A stretch of DNA of 64,000 nucleotides, taken from positions 1 to 64,000 of the forward strand of contig JAAEOA010000358.1 of assembly GCA_024223715.1 (NCBI GenBank), read 5' to 3'. Under the pieces are notes generated by a model, which saw nothing but the letters and a program-made list of their open reading frames with translations, was not told where the DNA came from and ran no database searches. Every line of letters starts with the position of its first letter. The first letter of the stretch is position 1. Below, one piece after another: positions 1,516-60,465 of this stretch. The position numbers and the translations under genes were made by a program. The DNA comes from a bacterium (GTDB taxonomy: Bacteria > Krumholzibacteriota > Krumholzibacteriia > LZORAL124-64-63).

Positions 1516-2118
1516 ATGATGAAACGACTGTTTGATTTGGTCTTTGCGTTATTGGGGTTGATTTTTGCAGGCCCCGTCCTGTTATTAACCGGTTTGCTTG
1601 TCAAGCTGTCCTCTGACGGTCCTGTTTTTTATCGGGGTAAACGTGCAGGACTGCATGACAGCACTTTCCACATTTTCAAGTTCCGAACCATGATACCCAA
1701 CGCTGAAGCGTTGGGTGGCCACTCCACCGGCTTGAATGATGCAAGGTTAACTCCCACTGGGAAATTTCTGCGAAAATACAAGCTCGATGAACTGCCCCAG
1801 CTCTTCAATATTCTCGCCGGTGAAATGAGTTTCGTGGGGCCCCGGCCCCAGGTTCTGGCCTACACCACCCTTTATGAAGGTGACCTGAAACGAATCATGG
1901 ATGTAAAGCCCGGCCTAACGGACTTTGCATCCATAGAATTTATTAACCTTGATGAAATACTTGGCGATGATGACGTCGACGGCAAATACCAAAGGGAAAT
2001 CGAACCTCGGAAAAATCAATTGCGGTTGAAATATGTCAATGAACAAGGTTTTGTAACGGATATCAAAATCCTCATCCTTACCGCAGCGCGTATGGTGGGC
2101 CTCAAGGATAAGACATGA
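1516..2118 (+). CDS. initiating phosphoglycosyl transferase (bacterial sugar transferase, small monotopic type)
   Basis: 200 residues, the size of the minimal PglC/WcaJ C-terminal catalytic unit. Residues 8-30 form the N-terminal re-entrant hydrophobic helix, followed by SSDGPVFYRGKRAG. The catalytic Asp-Glu pair is at 91-92 (KYKLDELPQLFNIL) and the family motif VGPRP at 107-111, then PGLTDFAS. The family transfers a sugar-1-phosphate from a nucleotide sugar to undecaprenyl phosphate at the inner membrane, the first step in making lipid-linked repeat units. It lies 5 nt after the methyltransferase and its end overlaps the aldo/keto reductase start (ATGA), so the genes are co-translated. A second ATG at 1519 could also be the start. 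This is the intact enzyme against which the degenerate copy at 51976-54108 can be compared. Confidence 0.93.
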   Translation: MMKRLFDLVFALLGLIFAGPVLLLTGLLVKLSSDGPVFYRGKRAGLHDSTFHIFKFRTMIPNAEALGGHSTGLNDARLTPTGKFLRKYKLDELPQLFNILAGEMSFVGPRPQVLAYTTLYEGDLKRIMDVKPGLTDFASIEFINLDEILGDDDVDGKYQREIEPRKNQLRLKYVNEQGFVTDIKILILTAARMVGLKDKT

Positions 2119-44247: not shown

Positions 44248-44323
44248 ATTTCACCAAACAACAACCCCCACCCCCAACTCACCACACACCTCTCACTTCC
44301 TCCCCATCAACCTCTTCCCCCAA
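44248..44323 (-). other. 76-nt tract with no C on the transcript (no G on +)
   Basis: From 44248 to 44323 the + strand has no G at all, so the - transcript is C-free and rich in G, with runs of five, four, five and five G. It covers the last codons of the Wzx-like gene and the following untranslated stretch. It might form G-quadruplexes or, in antisense, act as a C-rich Rho-loading site. Nothing else was recognised in the 207-nt gap 44086-44292. Confidence 0.6.
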
Positions 44324-45660
44324 GCCCTGCGCCGCCCAAGAAAAATCCGACCCCACGAAAATCCAGTAACTAAATGAAACCGGATCAGCATCATGGACGA
44401 TCCCACCGCATATGCAATGGAACTGGACCAAGCCGCACCCACGGCTCCATGCCGGGGAATTAAATAAAAGGCCGCCACCAAATTCACAGCCACCGTCAAA
44501 GCGCTGGCCTGGGTATTCCAGTGAGGCTTGCCCCGGCCAATAAAGTCTCCAGCCAAAACCGCCCCGGGAGCAAAGGCAATAATACCTGGCAACAAAGCCC
44601 GCATCGAATCACCTGAAGCAGAATACGCGCCACCAGCCAGAAAGCCCAACAACGGGTCAGCCAGAAAATACAAAGGCAAACCGGCGGCAATTGTCAACAA
44701 CAACCCAACTCGCAAAGCGCGGGCAGCTGTTCTGTCCCGATCAGGATCACCTTGATTTCGAGCCGAGCTATGAACAAGCAAGGGTGTCAACGCACCAGGC
44801 AGCAACCAAAGAATTTCTCCCACATAAACGGCTACTGAATAAATGCCCACTTCAGCAGCGCCTTTGAAATGTTCCAGAAGTCCCTGGTCAAGGCGAAGCA
44901 AAAGGAAATAGGCCACTGCAGAAATCTGTCCCAGCCAGCCATTTTTCAGGTTAAAAAGGATGAGTTTCAAACGACTGCGTTGGTGCAAATCTTCCGGTAA
45001 ATCTTCAGGATTGACCGATCCGGCAATGCCTTCTTTCACCGGTTCAGGATGAGAGCGCCGCTTCAAATCTCGAAGGAGAATAATCAGAGCAGCCACAGCC
45101 CCCATGAACTGAGCGGTGGCAAAAGCACCTACTGCTTTGCCTAAAGTTAATTCACCTAAATACCAGAGAATAATAATAACCAGGAAGTGTCCAAGGGCCC
45201 TAAAACCGTTGACAGCAGCGGAAATAACTAAACGTCCGCGAGCCAACAAGTCGTAGGAGAAAATTTCAAATCCGAGAATTGAGGCCGCCGCAACAGCCGT
45301 GGCAAAACCCAGCCCTGGGAACCAGCCCAGGTGATCAGCAAAAAACAGAGCCATCTGCCCCGATAAGGTCATGAAGGCCAGGAACCCCATAATGATTACC
45401 ATGGATCCGGCCCAGATTAATTGCGCGCTGACCATGCGCATGGCCGGAACCTTGTCCTGCCGTAAAGGCGGGACTGCTGCCAACCCCATACCGCCACCGA
45501 GCAAAGAGCCCAGCAACATTGCCACGGCAACGGTCAGGCTGTAATGGCCCTGGCCGGTGGGCCCGAGAGTATGGGCCACCACCATAACCACTGCGGCGTT
45601 GGCCAGAACCTGCCCCACCCGGCTGAAGAGAATGCGGGCTGCTGCCCGGAACAATCTCAT
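44293..45660 (-). CDS. polysaccharide flippase (Wzx/MATE-like)
   Basis: 455 residues with about twelve to fourteen membrane helices. It begins MRLFRAAARILFSRVGQVLANA, and later has ARNQGDPDRDRTAARALR and FIGRGKPHWNTQASALTVAVNL, the pattern of Polysacc_synt/MVF-type flippases. These move lipid-linked repeat units across the inner membrane. A hydrophilic loop of about 40 residues (KRRSHPEPVKEGIAGS) divides the two halves. The ATG overlaps the stop of the FemAB-like gene by 4 nt. It is the last gene of the long operon. Confidence 0.88.
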   Translation of the reverse strand: MRLFRAAARILFSRVGQVLANAAVVMVVAHTLGPTGQGHYSLTVAVAMLLGSLLGGGMGLAAVPPLRQDKVPAMRMVSAQLIWAGSMVIIMGFLAFMTLSGQMALFFADHLGWFPGLGFATAVAAASILGFEIFSYDLLARGRLVISAAVNGFRALGHFLVIIILWYLGELTLGKAVGAFATAQFMGAVAALIILLRDLKRRSHPEPVKEGIAGSVNPEDLPEDLHQRSRLKLILFNLKNGWLGQISAVAYFLLLRLDQGLLEHFKGAAEVGIYSVAVYVGEILWLLPGALTPLLVHSSARNQGDPDRDRTAARALRVGLLLTIAAGLPLYFLADPLLGFLAGGAYSASGDSMRALLPGIIAFAPGAVLAGDFIGRGKPHWNTQASALTVAVNLVAAFYLIPRHGAVGAAWSSSIAYAVGSSMMLIRFHLVTGFSWGRIFLGRRRAWGKRLMGRK

Positions 45661-46799
45661 GGTTTATTTTTTTCGTTGGGGTTATTTGAATCTGAACCAT
45701 CATGCCAGCGCTCGGCAGAGTCATGGTTTTGGCCAGGACGCAATCCTTGTAACAAATTACGACCTTTACGCAGAATTTTCATTCCCATGGAATCATGCGA
45801 ATAATGCCCACGCATTTCACCTTGGGCACCAAAGTGTTTTTTAAATCCCTGCAAAGACACCACGCCGCCGCTACCTCCCAAATCAAGGACTCGAGCCTGC
45901 CGTCGGCATGACTCTTCAATGTCACCCCAAACCGCCAAAGTTGCTGGAAAATGAGTTCGGGCATATTCCGGATCAGTGACGCCATTCCAGGCAATGACCC
46001 GATCCTGCCAATGCAGATTCAAATGCCCGCCAATCACTTTATCCTCAACCATGACGCAGGTAAAGAAGGTTCGGCGATTTCCATGGCTGTCGGTTGCCGG
46101 GTCGGCCAACAGGGCTTGCAAAAAGGCAAGCGGTGAGGGTTCAATGCCCCACACCCGACTGGCATTTTCATAAATGGGATAATAAGCTGACAGCAAATCG
46201 GGATCGTTGGTAATTTTAACGTGGGCATTGCGACGCAGAGCACGGTTGCGTTCGTTTCGCTTGTTCTTTTTCATGAGCTGCATTTCCACAAAATCCAGCC
46301 CCTGTTCCAGGGGAATTACTGCAGCAGGTGTTTCTTCATATTGCCATTGAATGGAAGTGCCGACCAACCAGTCAGAGCATTGCAATTGCTGGGCATGATT
46401 CAACGAGAGGCAAACCGTACCCAGATCTCGCCCGCGCAAAGTCACGTATTCTTCCATCAGTTGGTTAAAAACTTCCCGCCGATGAGCGGAGTTAAAATCT
46501 GCAGATAATAGCGGGCCGCCGCTGGTCCCTTCAATGCTGCTTTCCCATCGTGCGACTGGTTTGGTCCGCAGGATACAAGCCAAGCCACCGGCCAAACGGC
46601 CCTCAGCCCTGGCGGTCAGCCAAAAAAGCTGTCGATCCGGATGATATTTGGCTGCGCTTTCGAGCCAATGACGTGTGTGGAAATAATCGCTGCAGGGATC
46701 TGAAGCGAGCAACTCATCCCAGTCCTCAGGCGCAGGCCCGGACTGATCAATAACCAGATTCAAAGCCGAGTCACTATTGTTGCCATCTGCTGTACCCAT
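45657..46799 (-). CDS. FemAB/GNAT-like acyl- or aminoacyltransferase
   Basis: 380 residues. The N-terminal half resembles the FemAB fold (DYFHTRHWLESAAKYHPDRQLFWLTARAEGRLAGGLACI). A central basic helix follows (MKKNKRNERNRALRRNAHVKI), then the second GNAT-like part (FFTCVMVEDKVIGGHLNLHW, LDLGGSGG, LQGFKKHFGAQ). This is the GNAT/BioF2-like set seen in capsule clusters, where it acylates an amino-sugar or adds an amino acid. The aminotransferase just upstream would supply such an amino-sugar. Substrate not shown. Confidence 0.75.
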   Translation of the reverse strand: MGTADGNNSDSALNLVIDQSGPAPEDWDELLASDPCSDYFHTRHWLESAAKYHPDRQLFWLTARAEGRLAGGLACILRTKPVARWESSIEGTSGGPLLSADFNSAHRREVFNQLMEEYVTLRGRDLGTVCLSLNHAQQLQCSDWLVGTSIQWQYEETPAAVIPLEQGLDFVEMQLMKKNKRNERNRALRRNAHVKITNDPDLLSAYYPIYENASRVWGIEPSPLAFLQALLADPATDSHGNRRTFFTCVMVEDKVIGGHLNLHWQDRVIAWNGVTDPEYARTHFPATLAVWGDIEESCRRQARVLDLGGSGGVVSLQGFKKHFGAQGEMRGHYSHDSMGMKILRKGRNLLQGLRPGQNHDSAERWHDGSDSNNPNEKNKP

Positions 46800-48007
46800 C
46801 AGATCATTCTGCTCTCAACACTTTTTTTAACCACTTCAATAACATCGGCAACATCGTCATCGGTCATGCCGGGAAACAACGGCAAACTGACAGCTTGCTG
46901 ATAATATTTTTCCGTCTCAGGCAGCTGGGTGGAAAAATCATGTCCCTCAAAAACCGTACCCTCAGAATTAAATGCCGGGTGATGATGCAAGGGAATAAAG
47001 TGCACCGAGGAGCCAATGCGATTGGCTGAAAGATCAGCAATCAAACCGTCTCGACCACCTTCAATAACCGCATCATCAAGACGCAGAACATAAAGATGCC
47101 AAGCATGTGTGGCCCAATCCGCTTCACTGGGCAAAACCATTCCAGGCAACTTTGCAAATGCCTTATTAAACATGCCGGCAATTTCCGCTCGCCGCCCCAT
47201 GAACTCATCGGCCCGACCCAGCTGTACCATGCCCAGAGCCGCTGCAGGATCTCCCAAATGGAACTTATAACCCACAGCCACCACTTCATAATACCAGCGG
47301 CCTTTGTCGCCGTATCGTTGCCAGGCGTTGCCATCCATTCCATGGAAACTCAGCAGATGAAGTTTTTCAGCCATTTCTTCATGACGGGTCGTCACCAGGC
47401 CACCATCGCCGGTGGTGATGCACTTTGTGGCATAAAAACTAAAGACTGTAGCATCGCCAAAACCACCCACTCGTTCGCCATCAACGGCAGCACCAAAACT
47501 GTGGGCCGCATCTTCCATTACCATGATGTCGTGTTTTTTGGCGATGGCCAAAATTTCCTTGATACGACAAGGGTGTCCCGCCATGTGAACCGGGACCACA
47601 GCTTTGGTTCGTTCAGTAATGTGTTTTTCAAAAGATGCAGGATCCAGCCCCAGATTTTGGGGATCCAAATCGGCAAGAACGGGCGTGGCTCCACAGTGAA
47701 TCACCGCCGTCAAGGTTGCGATAAAAGTCATCGCTGGCAGGATGACTTCATCGCCTTCGCCCACTCCCATGGCTTTTAAAGTCAGGAACAATCCTGCTGA
47801 ACAACTGGCTACCGGAACAGCGCAGGGAACATTCAAATATTCGGCACAGGCGTCTCCAAATTCACGGACTTTCGGACCGTAGGTCAGCCATCCGGAGCGC
47901 AGCACGTCGGTCACTGCATCAATTTCTTCCTGGCCTACATCAGGTTTGAAAAAAGGCAACGCCTCTTCCCGCTTGATGAATACCTGTCCATTTTTTCCAT
48001 CGCTCAT
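46799..48007 (-). CDS. DegT/DnrJ/EryC1/StrS sugar aminotransferase
   Basis: 402 residues from the ATG at 48007 (a GTG at 48034 is the alternative). Typical marks: PAMTFIATLTAVIHCGATPV, VMEDAAHSFGA with the PLP-nitrogen-binding Asp166, and SFYATKCITTGDGG with the Schiff-base Lys195. The family transfers an amino group to a keto-sugar nucleotide in the cytoplasm. It follows a WbpM/CapD-like dehydratase by 37 nt, which would supply the 4-keto sugar, and its stop overlaps the FemAB-like start (TGATG). Confidence 0.95.
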   Translation of the reverse strand: MSDGKNGQVFIKREEALPFFKPDVGQEEIDAVTDVLRSGWLTYGPKVREFGDACAEYLNVPCAVPVASCSAGLFLTLKAMGVGEGDEVILPAMTFIATLTAVIHCGATPVLADLDPQNLGLDPASFEKHITERTKAVVPVHMAGHPCRIKEILAIAKKHDIMVMEDAAHSFGAAVDGERVGGFGDATVFSFYATKCITTGDGGLVTTRHEEMAEKLHLLSFHGMDGNAWQRYGDKGRWYYEVVAVGYKFHLGDPAAALGMVQLGRADEFMGRRAEIAGMFNKAFAKLPGMVLPSEADWATHAWHLYVLRLDDAVIEGGRDGLIADLSANRIGSSVHFIPLHHHPAFNSEGTVFEGHDFSTQLPETEKYYQQAVSLPLFPGMTDDDVADVIEVVKKSVESRMI

Positions 48008-48044
48008 ATTGATCAGCTTTCCCCAAAACGGCACACAGCCATCT

Positions 48045-49544
48045 TTAAAACAAATCGGGCCCTTGGGCCAGTGTTGATTGATTGAGTGTCTTGGCCAGCC
48101 ATAGACGTAAATTTTCCACGTCTCCGGCCAAAGCCAAATCGCAACCGGTTTTCAGATCTTTCGCGTCCATCAGGTCACGACCGTTTGCAGGTTTGGTTTT
48201 CCTGATAAGTGCGTGGTCGCTTCTCAACAGGTCTTCGTAATCTTCATTCAAAGATTCGTGCAGTTTTTCACCCGGACGCAAACCGGTAATATTAATACCC
48301 GGGCCGGTATCAATTCCGGCGGGATCGTATCCGCTAAGAACCAGAAGGTTTTCCGCCAGCTCAAGAATGGAAACAGGGTTACCCATTTCCAGAATATAAG
48401 TTGTTCCCTGTTCACCCATGACCATGGCTTCAATAACCAGCAAAGCCGCCTCGCGAATGGTCATGAAATACCGGGTCATTCGTTTATCGGTCACGGGCAA
48501 AGGCAGCCCCGCGGCAATGCGTTTGACAAAGAAAGGCACTACCGAGCCACGGCTTCCAAGAACATTGCCAAAACGAACGATCATAAAACGAGTGCTGTCA
48601 GATTCGGCGGCCGCCGTTCGCACAACCATTTCAGCCATTTTTTTGGTAGCCCCCATTACGCTTGAGGGGCACACCGCTTTATCCGTACTGATCAGGACAA
48701 ATCGCTCGGCTCCCACACGGGTGGCAAATCGAGTCAGATTTTTGGTTCCGCCAACATTAACCAATACCGCTTCTTCGGGATTGTCTTCCATTAACGGAAC
48801 ATGCTTATGAGCGGCGGCATGCAGAATAATGTCACAAGCCAGACGAGGTTCTTTTTTCCCAGACAAACAACCGGACAGATTTTCCAGTCGAACAGCATCG
48901 CGCACATCGGCAATGACGGGAATCAGTTTGGTCTTGCCTCGCAAGGGTTCCAGCTCAGCAACCATTTCAAAAATGCTATTCTCACCACGGCCCAAAAGGA
49001 TTAAGTGGCTCGGTTGCAAAGAAATAATTTGCCGACACAATTCGCCGCCAATGGATCCACCAGCGCCGGTAACCAATACCCTTTTTCCCATTACCACCGA
49101 GGCTGCAGCCTGGTCATGAAAAACTACAGTTTCACGACCCAGTAAATGTTCGGGCTGCACATCGGCCACCTGTTCAAAATGAACATCGCCTTCAATTATT
49201 GCCCGCAGGCCGGGAACTAACCGAAAGGGCAGGCCTGCTCTTTTACACAAAATAACCAGACGGCGAACCAAACGCCCCCCGGATGAAGGAATGGCCAGCA
49301 AAACTTCCTGGGCCCCGGTATCGTCTGCCACTTGCAGCAAATCATCGCAGCCTCCGCGCACAGGCAAACCGCAAATTTCTTTCCCTATGAGTTGAGGATC
49401 GTCGTCCAGAAAAGCAACCGGCTGCACGGATAATTTATCCCTTTGGATCTCTTGTACCAAAGACTGACCGGCAACACCTGCACCCACCACGAGAAGACGT
49501 GTTGGTGCACCGTTTTTCCCGGAATCCTTTCCGGTTCCTGCCAT
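48045..49544 (-). CDS. WbpM/CapD-like nucleotide-sugar dehydratase, short form without membrane helices
   Basis: 499 residues from the ATG at 49544, with GGAGG 5 nt upstream. Residues 15-130 are a Rossmann-like CoA-binding domain (LLVVGAGVAGQSLVQEIQ). The SDR domain starts near 150 with LVTGAGGSIGGEL. The active site reads STDKAVCPSSVMGATKKMAE, where Met replaces Tyr in the M-x3-K motif, as in WbpM. ILHAAAHKHVPLMEDNP and GLRPGEKLHESL also match. Typical family members have four N-terminal membrane helices and 600 or more residues; here they are missing. It should make a 4-keto-6-deoxy sugar from UDP-GlcNAc. Confidence 0.93.
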   Translation of the reverse strand: MAGTGKDSGKNGAPTRLLVVGAGVAGQSLVQEIQRDKLSVQPVAFLDDDPQLIGKEICGLPVRGGCDDLLQVADDTGAQEVLLAIPSSGGRLVRRLVILCKRAGLPFRLVPGLRAIIEGDVHFEQVADVQPEHLLGRETVVFHDQAAASVVMGKRVLVTGAGGSIGGELCRQIISLQPSHLILLGRGENSIFEMVAELEPLRGKTKLIPVIADVRDAVRLENLSGCLSGKKEPRLACDIILHAAAHKHVPLMEDNPEEAVLVNVGGTKNLTRFATRVGAERFVLISTDKAVCPSSVMGATKKMAEMVVRTAAAESDSTRFMIVRFGNVLGSRGSVVPFFVKRIAAGLPLPVTDKRMTRYFMTIREAALLVIEAMVMGEQGTTYILEMGNPVSILELAENLLVLSGYDPAGIDTGPGINITGLRPGEKLHESLNEDYEDLLRSDHALIRKTKPANGRDLMDAKDLKTGCDLALAGDVENLRLWLAKTLNQSTLAQGPDLF

Positions 49545-49561
49545 GGGGTCCTCCCGATAGA

Positions 49562-51970
49562 TTATCGAACGATTGCCAAACTTCGCACTGTGGCCAAGCC
49601 GTGCCATTGCACCTTCAGGACATACATACCAGTGGAAACAGGGCTACCCACTCGATTGTTGCCATTCCAAAAGCCTACTTCGCTACTGACAGAACTGTTT
49701 TTATAAACCAGTTGACCTTCGAGATTAAAAACCTCTACCAGAGCGGGGTCGTCTTCTGTTGCATCGGCTGCAAAGCCCCCCAGCTTAAGCAAAGGAGCAT
49801 CAATGCCAGCTACCCACGGATTGGGATAAATATAAACCTGATCAAGGTTTGAGACTTCTTCAGTCACGACTTCCGGGACATCCCATGACACAGCACCCAG
49901 AGTGCTGGAAACAGCCAGTCGATTGCCATCGGCGCTTACAGCTAACTGTTTGTACACCCCACCGGGCAAATTTGTAATGGAATTGAAACTGTAAAGCTGG
50001 CCGTACATGGGATTGGAAAGATAATTTCCCAAATCAAAATAGGCTTCTATTTCTGGCTCTTTTGTATCCCAAAGAATTCGGTTCAGGCCTTCACGGGTGG
50101 CCACCCAAAGGTTACCCTGGGCATCGGTGGCAATGTCGGCCACGTTCCCGTTAATTAATCCATCGATATAGAATGCGGTTTTGGTTTCATAATCTTCCAT
50201 AAGAGTCATGCTGTTCGCTTCGTAATCGACCCGGGTCACACCGTTCCCGCCATACCAGATGGTACCGTCCGGAGCCAGGGCCAGATGTGTTTTTTCCACG
50301 GTTGGATCATTGGAGGTCCCGCTGATGTCTGAGAATGGGCCAGCCCAATGGTCATCGCTGGTATCAGACCACGTTATTTCCTCATCAGGTCCGGCAAAAG
50401 GGCCATTCACGTCCCATCGCACCAGACCGGTTCCTTCGACGGCAAACCAGATGATGTCATTGCGAGCAACTAAAATATCCCAGACACTGACTCCGGTGCC
50501 GATGCCCCCATCCGGGCCCTGAAGAACATCGTGCCAGTTTTCAGATCCTCGCCAGTTCACAGGATCGGTCAGAATGCGGACTTTCTGGTCATGGGCCCAA
50601 TCGTAAGCAACAAGAAGAGTTCCATCCGGGTGAACCGTCAGGTTAACAATAGAAGAGTTGACCGGGAACGAGTCTTCCAAGCCACAGGTATTGCCGTTCA
50701 TCAGGTCCTGTTCACCGGTTTCAAGGTCAACCCTGACTATTCCCACACTGTATTGTGCAACGTAAATCAGTGAATTTGTAAAATCGGAACCGAGGGCCAG
50801 CATGGGCGCCCAGTGGTTGAATAAACCAGTGGAGTCATTGCCAGCGCTGGCAATTTCATAAATATTTGAATAGTCCTGACCCAACTGTCCGGAAACAGCC
50901 CAGCCATTACGAGATCCCACCCAGGTTTTCCCATCACTGCCAATGGCAATTCCATCAGGGTTGGGAACCAGTTGTCCGTCAACAACCTGATCAACAAAAG
51001 TGGAAGTGCCTTCTTCGTAAACGGCATACCAGGCGAAACCAGTTGTGCCGGCCATACCTGAAGGAATATTTCGTCCACCGGTCCAGATATTCTGACCGGC
51101 ACAAAGAGCATAAGGTTGTGACTGGGGTAAAGAAACGGTAGTCCAGGAGCTGCCGGAATAATAAGCCGTTGCTGAAGAACCAAGAACCCAGAGGTTGTCG
51201 GTATTGGCACTCAGGTCCCGCACCGTGCCCGTGTAACCGGTTGTGGACCAGACCTGGGTATCATTATTCCAGACAAAAACCCCGCCGTCGGTTCCTGCGT
51301 ACAGATTACCATCGGGCCCGATAGCGAAACGCGATGTGTTCAATTCCACAAGACCATCGTTCAGAACTGGAAACACATTGTTTTCAAATCGGCAAATTCC
51401 CGAAGGGGTCGCAATATACAAAAGGTCTTCGAAAAAAATCAGGTCGTTGATGTTGTCGTCAATCAGGCCGTCGGCATATGCGGTATACTGAGCCCCGGGG
51501 ATCCCATCAGTCAGTAACCCCAGCCCACCAGCATCCATACCGTAATAAACACGTTCCGTGCCACCCACAACGGCGCCGGTTACAGCAGTAACATCCATGC
51601 CGCCCAAGTTGCTGGTGAATAAACGGTATTCGGGTTCGGTATCGAAATTGGAAATCCGTGTCATGCCGCCGTCTTCTGTGGCTACCCAAATATTGCGGCC
51701 AGTCCAGGCCAGGTCGGATATGAAATTACCGGACAAATCAATGCCTGCACTGAGGCGAGAAACCTGCGTCGGATCCAAACGATCCCAGTACAGCAAGCCA
51801 CCCCCATCGAGGCCACCAATCACCCGGTCTTCAAATTCAAGAATACAGGTTATCTGTCTTTTAGTGAGTACCGATTCGAATTCAACATTCTGTGCCGCCC
51901 ATGAAGCAGTCACTGTGCTGACCAGAATCACAAAAGTTAAAGATACCAGAATCCCCAATGACTTTTTCAT
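49562..51970 (-). CDS. exported two-component-regulator-type beta-propeller with YPNP C-terminal domain
   Basis: 802 residues. A signal peptide lies at 1-26 (LGILVSLTFVILVSTVTASWAA). Residues about 35-690 hold many propeller blades with the motif W-x-A/G-T-x-x-G-G/L, such as NIWVATEDGGMTRI, LYAGTDGGVFVWN and LWVATREGLNRIL. Residues about 715-802 are an Ig-like sorting or FlgD-type module: VYIYPNPWVAG, VEVFNLEGQLVY, STGMYVLKVQW. In Bacteroidota this C-terminal type directs type IX secretion; in other FCB lineages its role is less sure. There is no membrane anchor. It sits inside the glycan operon, 6 nt after the GT2 fusion. Confidence 0.82.
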   Translation of the reverse strand: MKKSLGILVSLTFVILVSTVTASWAAQNVEFESVLTKRQITCILEFEDRVIGGLDGGGLLYWDRLDPTQVSRLSAGIDLSGNFISDLAWTGRNIWVATEDGGMTRISNFDTEPEYRLFTSNLGGMDVTAVTGAVVGGTERVYYGMDAGGLGLLTDGIPGAQYTAYADGLIDDNINDLIFFEDLLYIATPSGICRFENNVFPVLNDGLVELNTSRFAIGPDGNLYAGTDGGVFVWNNDTQVWSTTGYTGTVRDLSANTDNLWVLGSSATAYYSGSSWTTVSLPQSQPYALCAGQNIWTGGRNIPSGMAGTTGFAWYAVYEEGTSTFVDQVVDGQLVPNPDGIAIGSDGKTWVGSRNGWAVSGQLGQDYSNIYEIASAGNDSTGLFNHWAPMLALGSDFTNSLIYVAQYSVGIVRVDLETGEQDLMNGNTCGLEDSFPVNSSIVNLTVHPDGTLLVAYDWAHDQKVRILTDPVNWRGSENWHDVLQGPDGGIGTGVSVWDILVARNDIIWFAVEGTGLVRWDVNGPFAGPDEEITWSDTSDDHWAGPFSDISGTSNDPTVEKTHLALAPDGTIWYGGNGVTRVDYEANSMTLMEDYETKTAFYIDGLINGNVADIATDAQGNLWVATREGLNRILWDTKEPEIEAYFDLGNYLSNPMYGQLYSFNSITNLPGGVYKQLAVSADGNRLAVSSTLGAVSWDVPEVVTEEVSNLDQVYIYPNPWVAGIDAPLLKLGGFAADATEDDPALVEVFNLEGQLVYKNSSVSSEVGFWNGNNRVGSPVSTGMYVLKVQWHGLATVRSLAIVR

Positions 51971-51975
51971 ATTAA

Positions 51976-54108
51976 CTACCTTTTGACCCCAGAGGTCAGA
52001 TCTTGCTCCCGGTTGGCAGGGTCATCATTTTCAATGACTCCAAAACCACCAGGACCGCACCACAACTGCTTAATGTTAGAAAACAATGAAACTCGTTTTT
52101 TGGCCACTTCTGGGGGGTGACCGCCAGCCCAGGGACCGGTCAAACCGGGAGTCTCCGGTTCGTTTTTCCAGAAATCCACAATCTCGGCCGGGCTTTCAGG
52201 CAGAAAACGGGCCTGGCCCAAAAATGCCCTGGGCCCAACCACTCGAATTTTCCCAACCACTAAGGCTTTCATGAGCCCCCACTGCCAGAAATACGATTTC
52301 ATCCGCCCCTGGCTGTTGGTTGCCACCTCCAAGTGAGGATCGTTGCCCCAAATATCTTTGACATGAATGCATGTCATTCGGGCGGAACCTCGGGGAACCA
52401 GAACAAATTTGACCAGTAAATAAGGCAACCACCCCCAGACAATGGAAACCAATCCGAAAACAAAAGAGAACACACGCATCAATCCTGATCGCAAAGCTGA
52501 ACTGCTGCCGGAGCTTTGCACGGCGCTGAGCCCTCCACCAAAAGCCTCGGCTCGAGCCCCGCTGGCCAGCAACCAAACATCGTCCAGATTCCAGCGCAAC
52601 CGTATGCGCATGCGCCGCAGCCCTGCCAGTTGCAACCAGATATCAGGATTGTCTGTCGGACGTTCCCAGAAGACCACCTGACTGATTCGGTAGCGGCGAA
52701 CCACTTCCAAAAGCGAAGTGCTGGCCCCCAGCCAGGGTATTTCGTTATCCCTTAGAGGCGCAAAGCCATCTTCGTTGGTACTGGGCTGCCAAACAAAGCC
52801 AGCCACATCAACGCCCTCATCCTGAAGATTTTTGCAACCATTGAGCCAATTCTGAAGACGCATGGGCGGGCCTACCAGCAGGGTTCTTTCCAGAGATAAA
52901 TTCCCCTTTTCAAGTTTTCGCAAAATACGATGAACACCCAGGGAGCCTAAAGCGGTGGAAAAACCCAGCAGGGGAATAAACATCAGCAGAACTGCGCGGC
53001 TAATAACATCAAGATGTCCCAAATAGGTGGCAGCTAGAAGCAATACTGCCACCACGCCAACCTGTTGCAAATGTTCGGTTATGGAACGGGAACGCCTTTG
53101 GGAAAGAAGCCGGTAGCGGCCAGTCATCAAAAAGGTCAATGTGGTCAGCAGCAAGGAAAAGAGCAGCAGCGGAAAATACTCACCAAAGGGATACAATTCG
53201 GCGGAGAAGAAACGACCCATGATTCCGCGCAGAGCGTAAGCACCGCCAAAGGCAGCAGCAACCCCAAGCATGTCCAGGCTCCAGAGCAGAAAAACCAGCA
53301 TTGGCTCGCGCCATTTTTTTATAAGCCAAACCAGGACTCCCCATTTTTCATAAAAGGAGATGAGGCTTCCAAGGTGCAACCAGAAAGTGCGGGTGAATTT
53401 GCCCTGAGCGCTGTCCCGGCGATGACGATGAATGAAGCGGGCATCAGGCGAATATACCACCTCAAAGCCTGCCTGCCACATGCGATAGCACCAGTCGACA
53501 TCTTCAAAATAAAGAAAGAAACGTTCATCCATGGGCCCGGTTCGCAACATGGCTGAGCGGCGAACCAGCAAACAGCCACCCAGAACCCAATCCACAGGGC
53601 GAACACTTTGGTGGTCAAAGTCTTCCATTAAATGCAGACGAACGGTTTCGCTGTTGGGAAAAATTTTCCCCAAAAAAGTGCGACGCAAAAGCAGGGTTTT
53701 CAGATTGTAGAAACGGCGGCAGCTGTCCTGAACCGTGAGGTCCTCATTCAGCAATTGAGGCCCGACCATACCCGCTCGTGGAGTGCGATCGGCAAATTCC
53801 AACAAGTGGTCCAGAGCACCCGGTTGAACCACAATATCAGGATTCAGAACCAGATAATACTCCGCCTGCACCTGAGCCATGCCCAGATTACATCCTTTGC
53901 TGTAACCCAGATTTTCTTTGCTGAAAATCCATTGGAATTGGGGGTATTGGTTGTGGACTCCAACCAGGCCGTCATCTTCAGATGCGTTGTCCACGATGAT
54001 GATTTTGTGATCCTGAACCGGAGCATACGCCACCAGACTTTCGAGGCACCGACCCAAATCGGAACTCGAATTGTAGTGGACTATGACAACAGCCAGTTTC
54101 AAAGGCAA
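51976..54108 (-). CDS. fusion: GT2 glycosyltransferase - membrane/CoA-binding region - degenerate phosphoglycosyl transferase
   Basis: 710 residues; the start is a TTG at 54108 or 54102 behind GGAGGG. Residues 1-235 are a rhamnosyltransferase-like GT2 (VVIVHYNSSSDL, IIVDNASEDD, LVLNPDI at 86-92, LYFEDVDWCYR). Residues 270-380 carry several membrane helices and 405-510 a CoA-binding-like region, as in the N-terminal half of WbaP/WcaJ. Residues 543-670 follow the PGT pattern, with a hydrophobic helix, VVGPRAFLG at 623-630 and PGLTGPWAG near 654. The catalytic Asp-Glu dyad is missing: the stretch before VGPR reads FWQWGLMKALVVGK. GT2 is probably active; the PGT half is probably not. Confidence 0.8.
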   Translation of the reverse strand: MPLKLAVVIVHYNSSSDLGRCLESLVAYAPVQDHKIIIVDNASEDDGLVGVHNQYPQFQWIFSKENLGYSKGCNLGMAQVQAEYYLVLNPDIVVQPGALDHLLEFADRTPRAGMVGPQLLNEDLTVQDSCRRFYNLKTLLLRRTFLGKIFPNSETVRLHLMEDFDHQSVRPVDWVLGGCLLVRRSAMLRTGPMDERFFLYFEDVDWCYRMWQAGFEVVYSPDARFIHRHRRDSAQGKFTRTFWLHLGSLISFYEKWGVLVWLIKKWREPMLVFLLWSLDMLGVAAAFGGAYALRGIMGRFFSAELYPFGEYFPLLLFSLLLTTLTFLMTGRYRLLSQRRSRSITEHLQQVGVVAVLLLAATYLGHLDVISRAVLLMFIPLLGFSTALGSLGVHRILRKLEKGNLSLERTLLVGPPMRLQNWLNGCKNLQDEGVDVAGFVWQPSTNEDGFAPLRDNEIPWLGASTSLLEVVRRYRISQVVFWERPTDNPDIWLQLAGLRRMRIRLRWNLDDVWLLASGARAEAFGGGLSAVQSSGSSSALRSGLMRVFSFVFGLVSIVWGWLPYLLVKFVLVPRGSARMTCIHVKDIWGNDPHLEVATNSQGRMKSYFWQWGLMKALVVGKIRVVGPRAFLGQARFLPESPAEIVDFWKNEPETPGLTGPWAGGHPPEVAKKRVSLFSNIKQLWCGPGGFGVIENDDPANREQDLTSGVKR

Positions 54109-54121
54109 TACCCTCCGGTGT

Positions 54122-54895
54122 TTAAGGAATGCGCTTCAGCCGCAGAGCCCAGACCATCCACATGGCCTCAACAATGATGCGTTTGCTCATTTTTGAGACC
54201 CCGACCTGCCGATCAACGAACATGATGGGAATTTCCTTGATGCGCAAACGGCGCTTCCAGCAATGGTAATTCATTTCAATTTGGAAGGAATAACCATCGC
54301 TTTTGATTTTATCCAAAGGCAGCATTTCCATGGTGGAACGGCGGAAACATTTAAATCCGCCTGTGCTGTCTTTTATGGGCATTCCGGTTACGAAGCGTGC
54401 GTAAATGTTGGCTCCGACACTAAGGAACAACCGACGCAGTGGCCAGTTCACCACAGTAATGCCTTCAAGATAGCGGCTGCCCAGAACCAGATCGTGCTTG
54501 TCTATTTCTTCCAGAAATTGAGGCAAGGCATCTGGTGAATGGCTAAAATCGGCATCCATTTCAAAGATGGCTTCAAAATCAGTGTTTTCCAATATCCATT
54601 TAAAGCCGGCAATGTAAGCAGCACCAAGGCCCTCTTTGACCGCTCGCTCCAAAATAAAAATGCGATCGCCGAAGCCGGGCAAACTCTTGACAATATTGGC
54701 GGTGCCATCGGGGGAGCTGTCGTCCACCACCAGGACTGAAAGCCGGTCGTCTTTGGCCAGGATTTCCGGAATTAAACCACCCACATTTTCAGCTTCATTA
54801 TACGTCGGCACAACCACCACTGCTTTGGTGACTGGAGGTAAAGCCGGCAGATTGTTTTTCCCGCTGATGTCCTGGGGACCTCTCTTTTCACTCAC
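54122..54895 (-). CDS. polyprenol-phosphate mannose/glucose synthase (Dpm1-like GT2)
   Basis: 257 residues from a GTG at 54895 that overlaps the YfhO stop (GTGA). Motifs: VVVPTYNEAENV, VDDSSPDGTA, MDADFSHSPDAL (the DxD site), GSRYLEG, IKDSTGGFKCFRR and a late KRRLRIKEIPIMFVDRQVGVSKM. It lacks C-terminal membrane helices, like soluble Dpm1. The family makes polyprenyl-phosphate sugars used as donors by membrane GT-C enzymes, and such enzymes (YfhO, DUF2723) lie in the same operon. Confidence 0.92.
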   Translation of the reverse strand: MSEKRGPQDISGKNNLPALPPVTKAVVVVPTYNEAENVGGLIPEILAKDDRLSVLVVDDSSPDGTANIVKSLPGFGDRIFILERAVKEGLGAAYIAGFKWILENTDFEAIFEMDADFSHSPDALPQFLEEIDKHDLVLGSRYLEGITVVNWPLRRLFLSVGANIYARFVTGMPIKDSTGGFKCFRRSTMEMLPLDKIKSDGYSFQIEMNYHCWKRRLRIKEIPIMFVDRQVGVSKMSKRIIVEAMWMVWALRLKRIP

Positions 54896-57498
54896 GACTG
54901 GTTGTTTCCTTCAGATGGGTTGGCCCGCCGCCCCAAAAATAAGGGCGACAATAACATAATTAGCGTAAGAATCCACCCAACAACCGAAAGAGTCAATCCC
55001 TGCCTTACGGAAGGATCGCTGTAGTGGAAACGGACCTTGTGAGATCCAGATTCCAGAGCCACAGCCCGCAAGACCAGATCGGCAGTTAATATTGGTTGAG
55101 TTTGACCGTCAACTTCCACCTGCCAACCGGGAGCCATCATGTCTGACAGCAAAAGCAGGGCCGGAACGGGAGAATTCACACTCAAAATGATTTCTCCAAG
55201 GCCGTCTTTCTCAAAAATAGGCACCGGAAGAGGTTGAAGGCTGTTTGCAGGCATTGGAGATGGTTCTTCAGCAAGGAAAACCTGGTTAAAAACATCAATT
55301 TCCCCGGTTTGAATACCGTCCAGAAAGGGCTGCAGAGCGTCCTTTTCCGGCAACGTGGATACATTTGCCCACTGGGTCAGTAAACGTGCCCTGGGCACTG
55401 CATTGGAGTTGCGGTAAAAAACTGGCCTGGCAATACCGCCGGATGCTTTTTCCAGATCACCACCAAGGGAAGCCAGAACCTGCAATTGTCCCGGTGTGAA
55501 TTCACCATCGAAAGAAACAACTCCAGCAGACAACCAGGACGCCAGCCTGACGGCGGGTTTTTCACTATACAGCCTTTTGCGAATCTGTTCATAGGCGGCC
55601 AGTTTGACCGCATGATAACCACCGAGGCTGCGAATGCCATCGCCCATCCAAAGGTTTTGGTTTGAGCCCATTCCCAAAGGAAAAACCCGGTCATGACCGA
55701 CCAGTTTTTTCAAGGTGACAGCTCCGGGCCCAGACTTGGATTTTGATGGGCGGTAAGGACGCAACAACTTGCCCGATGGAACCAGTTGGGCTTGCCCCTG
55801 AGGATTTTGCACTACCACATGCAAGCCATTATCAGGCCCGACAATCAACTTATCAACCGCACTCAAATCCACAACAACCAAGAGCAGCAAAACCCAGAGC
55901 AGCCCCACACCACTAAGCATTCGGGCACGTGTGCTGCCCCAAATGGCGGCGCCGGCTGTTATCAGGATGAGACCAATGAGCATCAGACTGGATTTGTGCA
56001 GAAGCCAGGATTCTTTCAGCAATATCTGTGGGGCCGGTTTTCCGGCGGATTTAGCCAAGCTTTCAAGGCTTGATTGGTATATTCCTTCAGCCATTCCAGT
56101 TAAAGAGCCCATCAGCAGAAGAAACCCCAGACCGGCAAGAACCATGGGGAAAATTTTATTGAATGTTTGCTGGTTTCCTTGGCCAGCAGTATGACTCAAG
56201 GAACCGGTTTTCATAATACCAGCCAAACGAGCTGCCCCCAATGGTGCCAGAACAGCAGCAGCAAAAGCAGGCAAAATGAGAATCATTGATGGAATTCGGA
56301 ATTTGTCGAAAAATGGCAGCCATCCGTATAGCCATTCGTAAAAACCAAACCCAAAATTCCCAAATGAAACAAAAACTGCCAGCATGCTCATGGTCAACAG
56401 AGCCAGCAGCAAACTACGGTGGGTGGTCAAAAATACCGACGCCACAAGAGAGAGCAGCAGGAAACCAAAATAATTGGGATAATCATTAAAAGGCATCCGT
56501 CCCAAATAAGTGGCTTTGCCAAAACCTGCGGCCATGGGCAGAACCGCAGTGCCATATTCGTTGGGAGCCTGGCTCCAGCCGGTGGCATATTCTAACCCCG
56601 AATCGCCATCGTCAACGCTATTCTGCCCGCGAATGCTAATATCAGAATATTTGTGAACAGGAACCAGAAGAACTGCTGCAATAAGAAATCCCACTGCGAG
56701 GCCAAGGAAAACCTGCCCCACTCTCAGCCAACGCAATTTAGCCACCATTTGCCGAGCTTTTTCATCGAGAGGCCAGACAGCATTCCAAAGGGAAAACCAA
56801 GCCACAAGGGCCAGGGTGTAGTAGGAAATCTGAGGATGCCCCCGCAACAATAATAACCCCAGGAACAGAGCAGTTAAGCCCACCGAGCGCCAGCCTTTGC
56901 CATCAAGAACCCGCCACACCGATGCCACAATCCAGGGCATATACATTGCTGCCCCTAACTTGGAACCATGGCCATGAACCCCCCAGGCGACCACCTTGGG
57001 GAAAAGCAGGAAAACCAAAGCCCCCAACAAGAGAGCAGGAAACGGTAATTTCCAGCGAGACAAAAGCCAGACCATACCCAACCCGCCAAAAAGCAAGTGA
57101 CCAAACATCCAGGTCAGCGGCGGAAAACCCCAGTTCTGCAGAGTATTGAAAATTTCAGTTGGTGGGTAAACATATTTAAGGTAGGAGACCGACCCGAATG
57201 AAGGCATCCCGGCAAACAGATATGGATTCCAGAGGGGGTATCCATCTTCGCTCAGAGCCTTATCTCCCACGCTTGAAAATGACAAGGCATTCTCTGAATC
57301 GCTGCTCAAAAAAACCAGGTTTCCAGTTAAAGCCCCCTGGTACACAACACCCAGGACCAGTAGGATTGCCAAAACCAGAAACAAAGACTCTGCCCAAGAG
57401 GGCAAATTGATAGCAGGAAAACTGGGCACAACAGATGTACCTTTCTGCGCCTTTTTCTTTTTAGATCCCTTTTTACCGGCCAAGAGTTTTCTCCCCAT
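54892..57498 (-). CDS. YfhO-family membrane protein (GT-C-like)
   Basis: 868 residues. A basic N-terminal tail (KKGSKKKKAQKG) is followed by about twelve membrane helices up to residue 560. The first loop (YQGALTGNLVFLSSDSENALSF, then DGYPLWNPYLFAGMPSFG) matches the YfhO family. A large extracytoplasmic region (560-835) and one last helix follow (LTLSVVGWILTLIMLLSPLF). YfhO proteins are GT-C-like and act in glycosylation of wall polymers in Firmicutes. It feeds from polyprenyl-phosphate sugars, fitting the Dpm1-like gene overlapping its end. Confidence 0.85.
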   Translation of the reverse strand: MGRKLLAGKKGSKKKKAQKGTSVVPSFPAINLPSWAESLFLVLAILLVLGVVYQGALTGNLVFLSSDSENALSFSSVGDKALSEDGYPLWNPYLFAGMPSFGSVSYLKYVYPPTEIFNTLQNWGFPPLTWMFGHLLFGGLGMVWLLSRWKLPFPALLLGALVFLLFPKVVAWGVHGHGSKLGAAMYMPWIVASVWRVLDGKGWRSVGLTALFLGLLLLRGHPQISYYTLALVAWFSLWNAVWPLDEKARQMVAKLRWLRVGQVFLGLAVGFLIAAVLLVPVHKYSDISIRGQNSVDDGDSGLEYATGWSQAPNEYGTAVLPMAAGFGKATYLGRMPFNDYPNYFGFLLLSLVASVFLTTHRSLLLALLTMSMLAVFVSFGNFGFGFYEWLYGWLPFFDKFRIPSMILILPAFAAAVLAPLGAARLAGIMKTGSLSHTAGQGNQQTFNKIFPMVLAGLGFLLLMGSLTGMAEGIYQSSLESLAKSAGKPAPQILLKESWLLHKSSLMLIGLILITAGAAIWGSTRARMLSGVGLLWVLLLLVVVDLSAVDKLIVGPDNGLHVVVQNPQGQAQLVPSGKLLRPYRPSKSKSGPGAVTLKKLVGHDRVFPLGMGSNQNLWMGDGIRSLGGYHAVKLAAYEQIRKRLYSEKPAVRLASWLSAGVVSFDGEFTPGQLQVLASLGGDLEKASGGIARPVFYRNSNAVPRARLLTQWANVSTLPEKDALQPFLDGIQTGEIDVFNQVFLAEEPSPMPANSLQPLPVPIFEKDGLGEIILSVNSPVPALLLLSDMMAPGWQVEVDGQTQPILTADLVLRAVALESGSHKVRFHYSDPSVRQGLTLSVVGWILTLIMLLSPLFLGRRANPSEGNNQS

Positions 57499-57540: not shown

Positions 57541-58467
57541 TCAGTATCCCCGGCCACACATTTCATCGACAGCCCCTTGCCAAATGGCGATGGCTGTTTC
57601 GAGCCGACCATTCCAAAGATGCCAGGATGAATGCCCGCCAAGGAATCCCAGTTGAGTAAAAAAAAGAACCGGCCAGAAAGCTCGAGGCCAATGCTTGCCA
57701 AGCAAACGCATGTGACTTCGACTTCGCAACCAGGCTTTACGCGGACTGTCACTTCCCAGAGTGGCACTCACCTTGTGCAGAATCACTGCCCTGGGCACAT
57801 GCATAATGCGTCCTCCGGCTGAAGTGATTCGCAAACTGTAGTCGGCATCTTCTCCATAAAAATAGTAGCCATCGTCGAGCAGTCCCACCCGGTCCAGAAC
57901 TTCACTTCTGATCATCAGGGCACAGCCGGTTCCATAATCAATGAAACGGCGGTTGTAATCCAGTTTGCCTGCCATTTTTCGCAATCCGGCATGACGCACC
58001 CAACCGCTGAATTTGCCAACCAGACCACCATCATACCAGATGAGAGCTGGGTTGTGTGCATAACAGATTCTTGGAGTTACCGCCCAGGCTTCGGGGGAAT
58101 CTTCCAAGGCATCGGCCAACCGGCGAAGACTGCCTTCGGGAACCACAGTATCGTTGTTCAACAAGAGAATATGTCCCGTGTACTTCTCTTCCTTGAGCAT
58201 TTTCAGGGCAACGTTATTGCCACCAGCCCAGCGCAGGTTTTCACCCGTCTCAATAATTTCCACTTCCGGATAATGCTCCCTGGTCCAGGCCACGGAATCA
58301 TCTTCGGACCCGTTGTCCACCATGATGACTCGCAGTTGTAAAAACCGGTCGTCACCAAGGGAGCGAAAACAATCGGGCAGATCCTGCCGACCATTCCAGT
58401 TGACTACAACAACGGCCAAAGGATGAGGGCTGCCAGAAGCAGATTTTAAATCCTTTGCCTCAGACAC
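57541..58467 (-). CDS. glycosyltransferase family 2 (rhamnosyltransferase-like)
   Basis: 308 residues from a GTG at 58467 that overlaps the end of the upstream GT2 by 8 nt. Motifs: VVVNWNGRQDLPDCFRSL, VDNGSEDDS, the DxD-like LLNNDTVV, a DYGTGCALMIRSEVL acceptor segment and YYFYGEDADYSLRI. It lacks membrane helices apart from a short hydrophobic stretch near 270. It probably adds a sugar to a lipid-linked intermediate. Donor and acceptor are unknown. Confidence 0.91.
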   Translation of the reverse strand: MSEAKDLKSASGSPHPLAVVVVNWNGRQDLPDCFRSLGDDRFLQLRVIMVDNGSEDDSVAWTREHYPEVEIIETGENLRWAGGNNVALKMLKEEKYTGHILLLNNDTVVPEGSLRRLADALEDSPEAWAVTPRICYAHNPALIWYDGGLVGKFSGWVRHAGLRKMAGKLDYNRRFIDYGTGCALMIRSEVLDRVGLLDDGYYFYGEDADYSLRITSAGGRIMHVPRAVILHKVSATLGSDSPRKAWLRSRSHMRLLGKHWPRAFWPVLFFTQLGFLGGHSSWHLWNGRLETAIAIWQGAVDEMCGRGY

Positions 58468-59410
58468 GGTCGGCTACTCGGTAGGCATTTTCAGGACTGC
58501 GACCAGAGACAACCAACTCGGCAATAAGGCCCAGGCTGATGAACTGAAATGAAACGATAATGAAGACCAGCCCCAGCAACATGCTTGGCCTCAGGTGCAT
58601 GGGATTACCCATGGCCCACAAAACAAAATGGTACAAACTGATGAGCCCACCGGCTGCCAGGAAGGTGGTGCCAATTCGCCCGAAGAAATGCAGAGGCGAG
58701 GTTTGTTTTGCGTGCAAAAAGTAAACGGTGAGCAAGTCGAAAAACCCATTCAGGAAACGGGCAATACCATACTTGGTGACACCGTGTTTTCGGGCAAAGT
58801 GTTTGACGGGCATTTCGGTAACTTTAAAACCATCCAAAAAAGCCAGAGCCGGCACATAACGATGCATGTCACCGTATAGCTTAACCTTCTGTGTGACTTC
58901 CCGGCGGTAAGCTTTCAAACCGCAGTTAAAATCATGAAGTTTCAGGCCACACATTCGACTTGTAAACCAATTGAACACCTTGCTGGTATTATTTTTGATG
59001 AAGCTGTCCTTGCGATCCTGCTTCCAACCGGAAACCAAATCCCAGCCGTTTTCAATGAGGGCAATCAGGTCCGGAATTTCTGCCGGATCATCTTGCAGAT
59101 CGGCATCCATAGTGATGACGATGTCAGCGCTGGCTGCCTTAAAGCCGGCAGCCAAAGCCGCCGCTTTACCAAAATTGCGGCCAAATTTTATGCCATGAAC
59201 CTGAGGCCGAACTTTGGACAGTTCCTGAACCACATCGAAGGTGCCATCGTCGCTGCCGTCATCAATGATCCAGACTTCCCAGGTGCGGCCCATACCACTG
59301 ATGGCCTCATCAATGCGTTCCACCAGTTCAGGAAGACTTTCGTGCTCGTTGTAAGCGGGAACAACCACAGCCACCTCGGTGCGCACCATTTCTGCACTCA
59401 CGTCACTCAC
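58460..59410 (-). CDS. membrane GT2, polyprenol-phosphate sugar synthase (GtrB/ArnC-like)
   Basis: 316 residues from a GTG at 59410. Motifs: VVVPAYNEHESL, IIDDGSDDGT, TMDADLQDDP (DxD), SGWKQDRKDSFIKNNTSKVFN and FNCGLKAYRRE. Two membrane helices close the protein (about 243-262 and 277-302), as in GtrB/ArnC/YkcC enzymes that attach a sugar to undecaprenyl phosphate at the inner face. It ends 8 nt inside the next GT2 and starts 2 nt after the epimerase gene. Confidence 0.93.
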   Translation of the reverse strand: MSDVSAEMVRTEVAVVVPAYNEHESLPELVERIDEAISGMGRTWEVWIIDDGSDDGTFDVVQELSKVRPQVHGIKFGRNFGKAAALAAGFKAASADIVITMDADLQDDPAEIPDLIALIENGWDLVSGWKQDRKDSFIKNNTSKVFNWFTSRMCGLKLHDFNCGLKAYRREVTQKVKLYGDMHRYVPALAFLDGFKVTEMPVKHFARKHGVTKYGIARFLNGFFDLLTVYFLHAKQTSPLHFFGRIGTTFLAAGGLISLYHFVLWAMGNPMHLRPSMLLGLVFIIVSFQFISLGLIAELVVSGRSPENAYRVADRV

Positions 59411-59412
59411 CC

Positions 59413-60465
59413 TTATTCTCCCCTGTTTTTCCGGCGTTCGATGGCCCAGTCCACTTCTCGGGCCAACCCTTCACCAAAGGTCAGACTCGGTTTATAGCCA
59501 ATGGTTTTTTCCACATGGGTGCGCTCGGCGAAAGTATCTTTCACATCACCCAGAGCCACGGGGTGATACTCAACCTGAGGATCTAATTCGGGCAGGCGGT
59601 CTTTGAGAATTTCAGTCAACTGATTGAGGCAATCGCTGAAGGCCATACGACTGCCACCACCGGTATTAAAAACTTCCCAGGTTTCATCGCAGGAAACAGC
59701 CAGCAGGTTGGATTTTACGGCATCGCCGACATAGGTGAAGTCACGGGTCTGAGAGCCGTCGCCATAAACGCTGAAAGCTTCTCCATCGAGAGCTTTTTCG
59801 ATAAAAATACGGAAGGCCATGTCAGGCCGCTGGCGAGGGCCAAAGACCGTGAAATAGCGCAAGCTGCTGGTGGGCACGCCAAAGTTCATTGAATACAAAA
59901 CGCACAAATGTTCGGCTGCCATTTTTGTCACTCCATAAGGAGAACGAGGCTGAGGCAAAGCCTTTTCCGTCACTGGCAGCTCAGGCTGGTCGCCATAAAC
60001 AGAACTGCTGCTCGAATACACAAAACGCACCAGCGAGTCTTTCACATTGTCGTGCTTGCAGGCTTCCAGCAGTTGTTGAGAGGCCATGACATTGCGACTG
60101 AGGTATTCGCTGAAATATTCGCCCCAGCTGGCTCGAACGCCGGCCTGGGCAGCCAGGTGAAAACAGGCAACCTTGCCAGTCAATAACTCAACCAGATCCA
60201 AATCCAGAAGTTCATTTTCGAGAAAGGTGAAGTTCTCGTTATTGACAAATCCGGACAGATTTTCCCTCTTCAAACTCACGTCGTAATAATCGGTCAGGCA
60301 ATCCACTCCGGTGACTTTACAGCCCAGCTCCAGAAGAGCTTCACTGATGGTGCTGCCAATAAAACCAGCGCACCCGGTCACGACAACTTCTGCCCCGGGG
60401 CACAAAACTTTGGTCACCCGTTCAGGCAATTCCGAGATAATTTCCTGCAGTTCGATGCTATTCAT
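59413..60465 (-). CDS. NAD-dependent epimerase, UDP-glucuronate 4-epimerase-like
   Basis: 350 residues from the ATG at 60465, with GGAGG 6 nt upstream. The NAD loop G-x2-G-x2-G is at 31-37 (TGCAGFIGS). SSSSSVYG and Tyr177-x3-Lys181 (YGVTK) form the catalytic set. DYYDVSLKREN and LAAQAGVRASWG resemble UDP-glucuronate 4-epimerases more than GalE. A UDP-uronic acid would be made by the dehydrogenase at 9517-10797. Residues 1-24 are an extra N-terminal stretch. It overlaps the end of the DUF2723 gene by 8 nt. Confidence 0.9.
   Translation of the reverse strand: MNSIELQEIISELPERVTKVLCPGAEVVVTGCAGFIGSTISEALLELGCKVTGVDCLTDYYDVSLKRENLSGFVNNENFTFLENELLDLDLVELLTGKVACFHLAAQAGVRASWGEYFSEYLSRNVMASQQLLEACKHDNVKDSLVRFVYSSSSSVYGDQPELPVTEKALPQPRSPYGVTKMAAEHLCVLYSMNFGVPTSSLRYFTVFGPRQRPDMAFRIFIEKALDGEAFSVYGDGSQTRDFTYVGDAVKSNLLAVSCDETWEVFNTGGGSRMAFSDCLNQLTEILKDRLPELDPQVEYHPVALGDVKDTFAERTHVEKTIGYKPSLTFGEGLAREVDWAIERRKNRGE

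Follow-up and report, generated by a model that had tools for sequence, protein, structure and literature searches.

The reading frame on the minus strand from 54108 to 51976 of the window, the 64,000-nucleotide stretch of DNA that we analyzed, encodes a 710-residue protein in which a GT2 glycosyltransferase with invariant catalytic motifs (residues 1-258) is joined to a segment that corresponds to an entire WbaP-type large monotopic phosphoglycosyl transferase, or Lg-PGT (residues 267-665). The Lg-PGT elements begin with a four-helix membrane bundle, continue with the DUF and a beta-hairpin, and end with the re-entrant helix and the catalytic domain. Judged by its sequence, the active site of that last domain is destroyed, the nucleophile Asp, the partner Glu and the KFRTM segment all having been lost. 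The C-terminal half is an ancient and retained pseudo-PGT, not a recent lesion, and the fusion occurs throughout Candidatus Krumholzibacteriota. A preliminary description, which did not give the strand, had recognized a GT2 fused to a membrane/CoA-binding region and a PGT domain without its dyad; the profile chain, the predicted structure and the orthologues described below bear this out. We can go further than that description, in that the fused part is a whole Lg-PGT and its pseudo state is phylum-wide.

Architecture of the fusion protein

Homologue alignments begin at about residue 3 of the fusion protein, and translation probably begins at the second TTG (54102), 8 bases behind GGAGGG. The frames are open and without internal stops, which rules out a frameshift hiding the dyad. 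The features of the protein, together with an intact small PGT used as a comparison case, are as follows.

51976..54108, minus strand: GT2 / pseudo-Lg-PGT fusion protein, 710 residues (probable start 54102; orthologues without internal stops)
53335..54102, minus strand: GT2 glycosyltransferase domain, residues 3-258 (PF00535; conserved columns)
52903..53310, minus strand: four-helix membrane bundle, residues 267-402 (AF2 helices 267-300, 312-328, 343-363 and 371-401; TIGR03025)
52516..52896, minus strand: Rossmann-like DUF / CoA_binding_3 domain, residues 405-531 (PF13727; AF2 strands)
52516-52554, minus strand: beta-hairpin ending the DUF, strands 519-523 and 526-531 (AF2 prediction)
52114..52506, minus strand: dead PGT domain, residues 535-665 (AF2, alignments, profile comparison, PF02397 in orthologues)
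52390-52506, minus strand: long re-entrant-type helix 535-573 that opens the dead PGT domain (AF2)
52282..52287, minus strand: W608-Q609 at the positions of the catalytic Asp-Glu dyad (alignments)
52228..52239, minus strand: VGPR, residues 624-627 (alignment)
52135..52149, minus strand: PGLTG, residues 654-658 (alignment)
1516..2118, plus strand: intact small PGT with D91-E92, comparison case (full PF02397 match, 2.2e-53)

The N-terminal domain is a GT2 glycosyltransferase, with a PF00535 match over residues 7-132 (E 9.6e-20; 71.6 bits against a cut-off of 23.3) and the acidic metal/nucleotide and base motifs of that family. D40, D91 (within NPD) and EDVDWC at 202-207 are invariant or nearly so; across 50 sequences D91 is nearly invariant, and E202, D203 and D205 are invariant.

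The assignment of the remainder of the protein draws on several lines of comparison. The TIGR03025 EPS_sugtrans profile matches residues 285-571 (E 2.6e-17) and covers the first two thirds of the large-PGT model, and the CoA_binding_3 profile PF13727 matches residues 330-478 (E 6.9e-5) at 23.4 bits, just below its 25-bit cut-off. There is no match to PF02397 (Bac_transf) in the query protein itself. Six orthologues from distant families exceed the cut-off for this profile, with up to 73 bits, and these matches always start at profile position 90-96, in the part behind the dyad. With hhalign, the domain of the query's family aligns to that of the distant families (98.7%, E 1.5e-16), and the distant-family domain aligns in turn to ordinary PGTs (99.4%, E 1.4e-21); compared directly with ordinary PGTs, the query's family reaches only 33.6% (E 4e-4). 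As traced through these intermediate sequences and through predicted structures, the PGT homology of the dead domain holds beyond chance. The VGPR and PGLTG marks that had first drawn attention to this region are indeed present, and the profile chain together with the PF02397 matches in orthologues rules out that they are a chance resemblance.

In the AF2 model of the query (pLDDT 88.1, pTM 0.84), four long helices lead into a Rossmann-like domain and a beta-hairpin, after which come a helix of 39 residues and a small alpha/beta domain, so that, as predicted, the four helices and the PF13727 DUF (slightly under cut-off) precede the PGT domain in the Lg-PGT order. Foldseek with this model returned GT2 entries as all of its best 50 matches, so this list gives no evidence of its own for the PGT fold; for the orthologue L031 (model with 84.2 and 0.65 by the same measures) the best PDB match is WbaP 8t53, with E 1.4e-15 over 445 columns. 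The element order of the query model is the one described for WbaP, in which the DUF and the beta-hairpin make the dimer (PMC10942596). A homodimer with domain-swapped beta-hairpins belongs to the Lg-PGT architecture, and for the query the two hairpin strands are predicted. The features of the re-entrant helix are unevenly kept, the equivalent of D11 being present in 30/31 distant-family members versus 4/31 of the query's family. The equivalent of P24, the conserved Pro of this helix, is retained by a minority in the alignment.

Loss of the PGT active site

We aligned 62 distinct fusions jointly with 13 ordinary PGTs, of which twelve are Lg-PGTs of the phylum and one is the small PGT encoded in the window. 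Both dyad residues, the nucleophile Asp and the Glu, are present in 13/13 ordinary PGTs and in none of the fusions, and the KFRTM motif, likewise found in all 13, falls in a gap in 62/62 fusions. The loss of the Asp-Glu pair, read previously from the query alone, where W608-Q609 occupies the dyad, is thereby confirmed and extended to every orthologue. The fold glycines G619, G625, G655 and G658 are retained. In PglC, substrate orientation depends on K59, R88 and R111 (PMC12802240). The K59 segment is deleted in every fusion, the R88 equivalent survives in 4/62 and is mostly replaced, and the R111 equivalent, which is the Arg of VGPR, is kept in 20/62, the query included. The query's family has also lost the equivalents of D11, D168 and the tail region. 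The query consequently lies outside the active monotopic PGT superfamily as marked by the dyad and by K59, R88 and R111 of PglC and, with the dyad absent from its sequence, outside the bifunctional monoPGTs, in which two catalytic domains including the PGT are active. The position of the dyad Glu is Gln in 31/31 of the query's family, in a domain that is otherwise very variable.

Two other accounts of the missing dyad were rejected. A recent mutation or assembly error is ruled out by the same state in 62 distinct orthologues. A site rebuilt from other acidic residues, which would have contradicted the claim of a dead PGT, is likewise disfavoured: in the alignment we found no acidic residue conserved through the query's family.

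In the dead PGT domain of one orthologue (L018, G031:C1:513-2642), about 15 residues are duplicated in tandem (LDGPRPQTGGRRETP twice) precisely where the VGPRP-type motif lies, which would fit a site that has no remaining catalytic use.

Ordinary PGTs are encoded separately. The homologue at 1516-2118, described earlier as intact with Asp91-Glu92, is so, with its full-length PF02397 match. Each tested genome has between two and seven PF02397 matches, a count that takes in fragments and fused domains, and the twelve separate Lg-PGTs that we read all carry the dyad. One of these, with an intact LDE dyad, is in the genome of the window (G000:C284:8911-10359; L108:3783-5363), and similar ones are found in the other sampled genomes of the phylum.

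Distribution, descent and selection

The suggested survey of other genomes found the fusion nearly phylum-wide. The family profile matches 79/80 genomes of the phylum at E <= 1e-20; most of these give a full-length fusion, and some, mainly incomplete genomes, give only the GT2 domain or fragments. Orthologues share 47-76% identity within the query's family and about 33-45% with other families of the class, in which the dead domain is better preserved than in the query's own family. In the protein tree the query's family and most other families are monophyletic, consistent with inheritance of the fusion by vertical descent. No fusion with an intact dyad occurs among the 62 orthologues. In one locus (L030, G018:C1) the in-frame match ends at about residue 486 of the fusion and a second ORF matches weakly, a pattern that resembles a frameshift, either in the genome itself or in its assembly.

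Comparison of close pairs gives dN/dS values of 0.09-0.49 in the dead domain and 0.03-0.29 in GT2, with several dS values near saturation. By these values the dead domain is kept by purifying selection, more loosely than the rest of the protein; it has the highest dN/dS and the lowest identity of the four domains (mean 0.43, against 0.76 for GT2).

Samples of two other phyla yielded only solo GT2 relatives. No fusion of any kind was found in 151 and 201 (overlapping) genomes of one, where the 201-genome set has no positive control for its empty result, or in 297 of another. The closest outside relative of the GT2 domain (L145, G354:C10:31000-49000) is a protein of 270 residues with 44% identity, from a genome of another phylum, that lies two genes before an ordinary, intact-type PGT; this pair is possibly an unfused counterpart or split-gene ancestor.

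A candidate surface-glycan locus in genomes with type IX secretion

The fusion gene lies within a conserved cluster, all of whose members listed here are on the minus strand.

44293-45660, minus strand: Wzx-like flippase (profile matches, synteny)
45657-46799, minus strand: FemAB-like acyltransferase (TIGR03019 3.9e-11, under cut-off; synteny)
46799-48034, minus strand: PseC-like DegT aminotransferase (profile matches, synteny)
48045-49607, minus strand: 4,6-dehydratase (profile matches, synteny)
49562..51970, minus strand: PorZ-like beta-propeller protein with T9SS C-terminal signal, conserved neighbour (NF052228 2.8e-13, under cut-off)
54122..54895, minus strand: DPM1-like GT2 of the polyprenyl-phosphate-sugar synthase type, conserved neighbour (profile matches, synteny)
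54892..57498, minus strand: YfhO-like GT-C membrane protein, conserved neighbour (PF09586 2e-6, just under cut-off; synteny)
57541-58467, minus strand: GT2 (profile matches, synteny)
58460-59410, minus strand: ArnC/PgfS-like GT2 (profile matches, synteny)
59413-60465, minus strand: NAD epimerase (profile matches, synteny)
60458-63211, minus strand: TMEM260-like GT-C (profile matches, synteny)

Where flanks exist, the same order is found across the phylum, from the TMEM260-like GT-C through the epimerase, the two GT2 genes, the YfhO-like and DPM1-like genes, the fusion, the PorZ-like gene, the dehydratase, DegT and FemAB-like genes to Wzx, although certain lineages lack some of these genes or have others in their place. 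On either side of the fusion, the DPM1-like and PorZ-like genes were detected in nearly all loci whose contig reaches them. In the window, positions 41255-63211 hold this phylum-wide surface-glycan locus (PorZ-like, PseB/PseC-like, FemAB-like, Wzx) where it joins the mraZ/rsmH cell-division cluster. The dehydratase carries a partial CoA_binding_3 domain (profile from position 82) without the membrane bundle, and the Lg-PGT-like bundle and DUF of the fusion are encoded two genes upstream of it.

The PorZ-like neighbour scores 49.2 bits with NF052228, under the curated 260-bit cut-off, and its relatives reach 78 bits at best and never the PorZ cut-off; in four genomes of distant lineages (G036, G043, G044 and G040) this protein is nevertheless the best PorZ match of the genome. 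Of the T9SS components, SprA is above cut-off in 27/28 genomes and PorU is found in 24/28. A-LPS of Porphyromonas is bound by PorZ, which delivers it to the PorU sortase (PMC8545088); its synthesis depends on WbaP, on the DegT enzyme PorR and on VimA, a protein similar to the FemAB family TIGR03019 (PMC7468200). The stretch 41255-63211 looks like a candidate T9SS anchor-glycan locus, and a T9SS-related glycolipid as its product is a reasonable but unproven reading.

Proposed role of the retired Lg-PGT

We suggest, from the sequences and predicted structures, that the fusion is probably a GT2 glycosyltransferase bound to the membrane through a retired Lg-PGT that serves as its scaffold. Working at the cytoplasmic face, the GT2 half would extend a polyprenyl-diphosphate-linked glycan by a sugar, and the dead half would hold it at the membrane beside this substrate and probably dimerise the protein, by analogy with the DUF and beta-hairpin of WbaP. 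Priming would be left to separate intact PGTs. From the neighbouring genes, the glycan may tentatively be assigned to a T9SS-linked surface glycolipid, an assignment to which we give somewhat less than even chances. That the same combination recurs in the same gene cluster in nearly the whole phylum points to a structural role retained by the dead half, and we favour that of an anchor or dimer scaffold; specific binding of lipid-linked sugars lacks direct support, because most of the PglC substrate residues are gone as well.

We considered whether the Lg-PGT part might instead be an inert membrane tether, a slowly eroding relic with no binding, dimer or regulatory role. A relic would be expected to show the elevated dN/dS and low identity seen in the dead domain, and the further losses of D11, D168 and the tail region in the query's family fit as well. 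We nonetheless regard this as unlikely: full length is retained across the phylum, dN/dS is well below 1, Gln609, Arg545, Gly619 and Gly625 are invariant in 31/31 of the query's family, and a DUF and a PGT-like domain are superfluous for a mere tether.

Another reading, which we hold to be quite unlikely, is that the fusion replaces WbaP in an A-LPS-like pathway. The dead Lg-PGT would capture the polyprenyl-PP-sugar made by a separate PGT and pass it on to the attached GT2, and the sugar would thereby be committed to the glycolipid with which the T9SS anchors cargo; if so, a pseudoenzyme would set pathway commitment across the phylum. Still more doubtful is a regulatory function, either by sensing of UMP or UDP-sugar through the DUF or by heterodimers with an intact Lg-PGT that control priming. 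In WbaP the DUF is a binding site for uridine nucleotides and keeps the dimer together (PMC10942596), dimerisation can serve to control large PGTs (PMC12802240), and an intact Lg-PGT is encoded in the genome of the window and in the other sampled genomes, but this Lg-PGT is not co-localised with the fusion and in the former lies on another contig (C284). A last possibility, that rearrangement of the active site has left the C-terminal half a working PGT, is scarcely credible: an acidic residue two positions before the dyad in 28/31 distant-family members, Asp585 invariant in 23/23 of a core subset of the query's family and the surviving VGPR Arg could be read this way, but the first two occur without the rest of the site, the query's family as a whole conserves no acidic residue, neither Asp nor Glu ever occupies the Glu position, and the K59 and R88 equivalents are deleted and mostly replaced, respectively.

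Monotopic PGTs have so far been treated as enzymes. In the open literature we found no description of a PGT pseudoenzyme or of a GT/dead-PGT fusion; the superfamily's main network survey lay outside this search, and an earlier mention there is possible. A phylum-wide and selectively retained pseudoenzyme would show that the WbaP-type membrane scaffold is useful apart from its chemistry, and would make it possible to tell its anchor, dimer and product-binding roles apart by experiment. Beyond Bacteroidota, the locus in addition provides a specific candidate for a glycan pathway related to the T9SS.

Comparison with known systems

The GT2 domain, of about 255 residues, is shared with stand-alone enzymes of the rhamnosyltransferase-like group (TIGR01556; the solo relatives in two other phyla), which unlike the fusion have no PGT module and lie in other gene neighbourhoods. 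In the multi-component transmembrane glycosylation systems CsbB/GtcA/YfhO (PMC8035078), a DPM1-like GT2 stands beside a YfhO-like GT-C, as here. The present locus is much larger, with further glycosyltransferases, an epimerase, a dehydratase and a PorZ-like protein, and those systems have no counterpart of the GT2/pseudo-PGT protein. The A-LPS and linking-sugar genes of the Porphyromonas T9SS (WbaP, PorR, PorS, VimA and PorZ; PMC7468200, PMC8545088) offer a further parallel, with PorZ-like, DegT, FemAB-like and Wzx-like genes likewise together in a T9SS-bearing genome; the locus differs in having no intact WbaP, a PseB/PseC-like rather than a WbpA-E route, and PorZ and FemAB matches below curated cut-offs.

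At the level of the protein, bifunctional monoPGTs (PMC10942596) resemble the fusion in joining a second functional domain to a PGT module, whereas the PGT of the fusion is inactive by sequence and would hence not form part of a two-reaction enzyme. Salmonella WbaP (PDB 8T53; TIGR03025) has the same order of four-helix bundle, PF13727 DUF, beta-hairpin, re-entrant helix and PGT domain, to which the fusion, without the catalytic dyad and KFRTM segment, adds an N-terminal GT2 domain.
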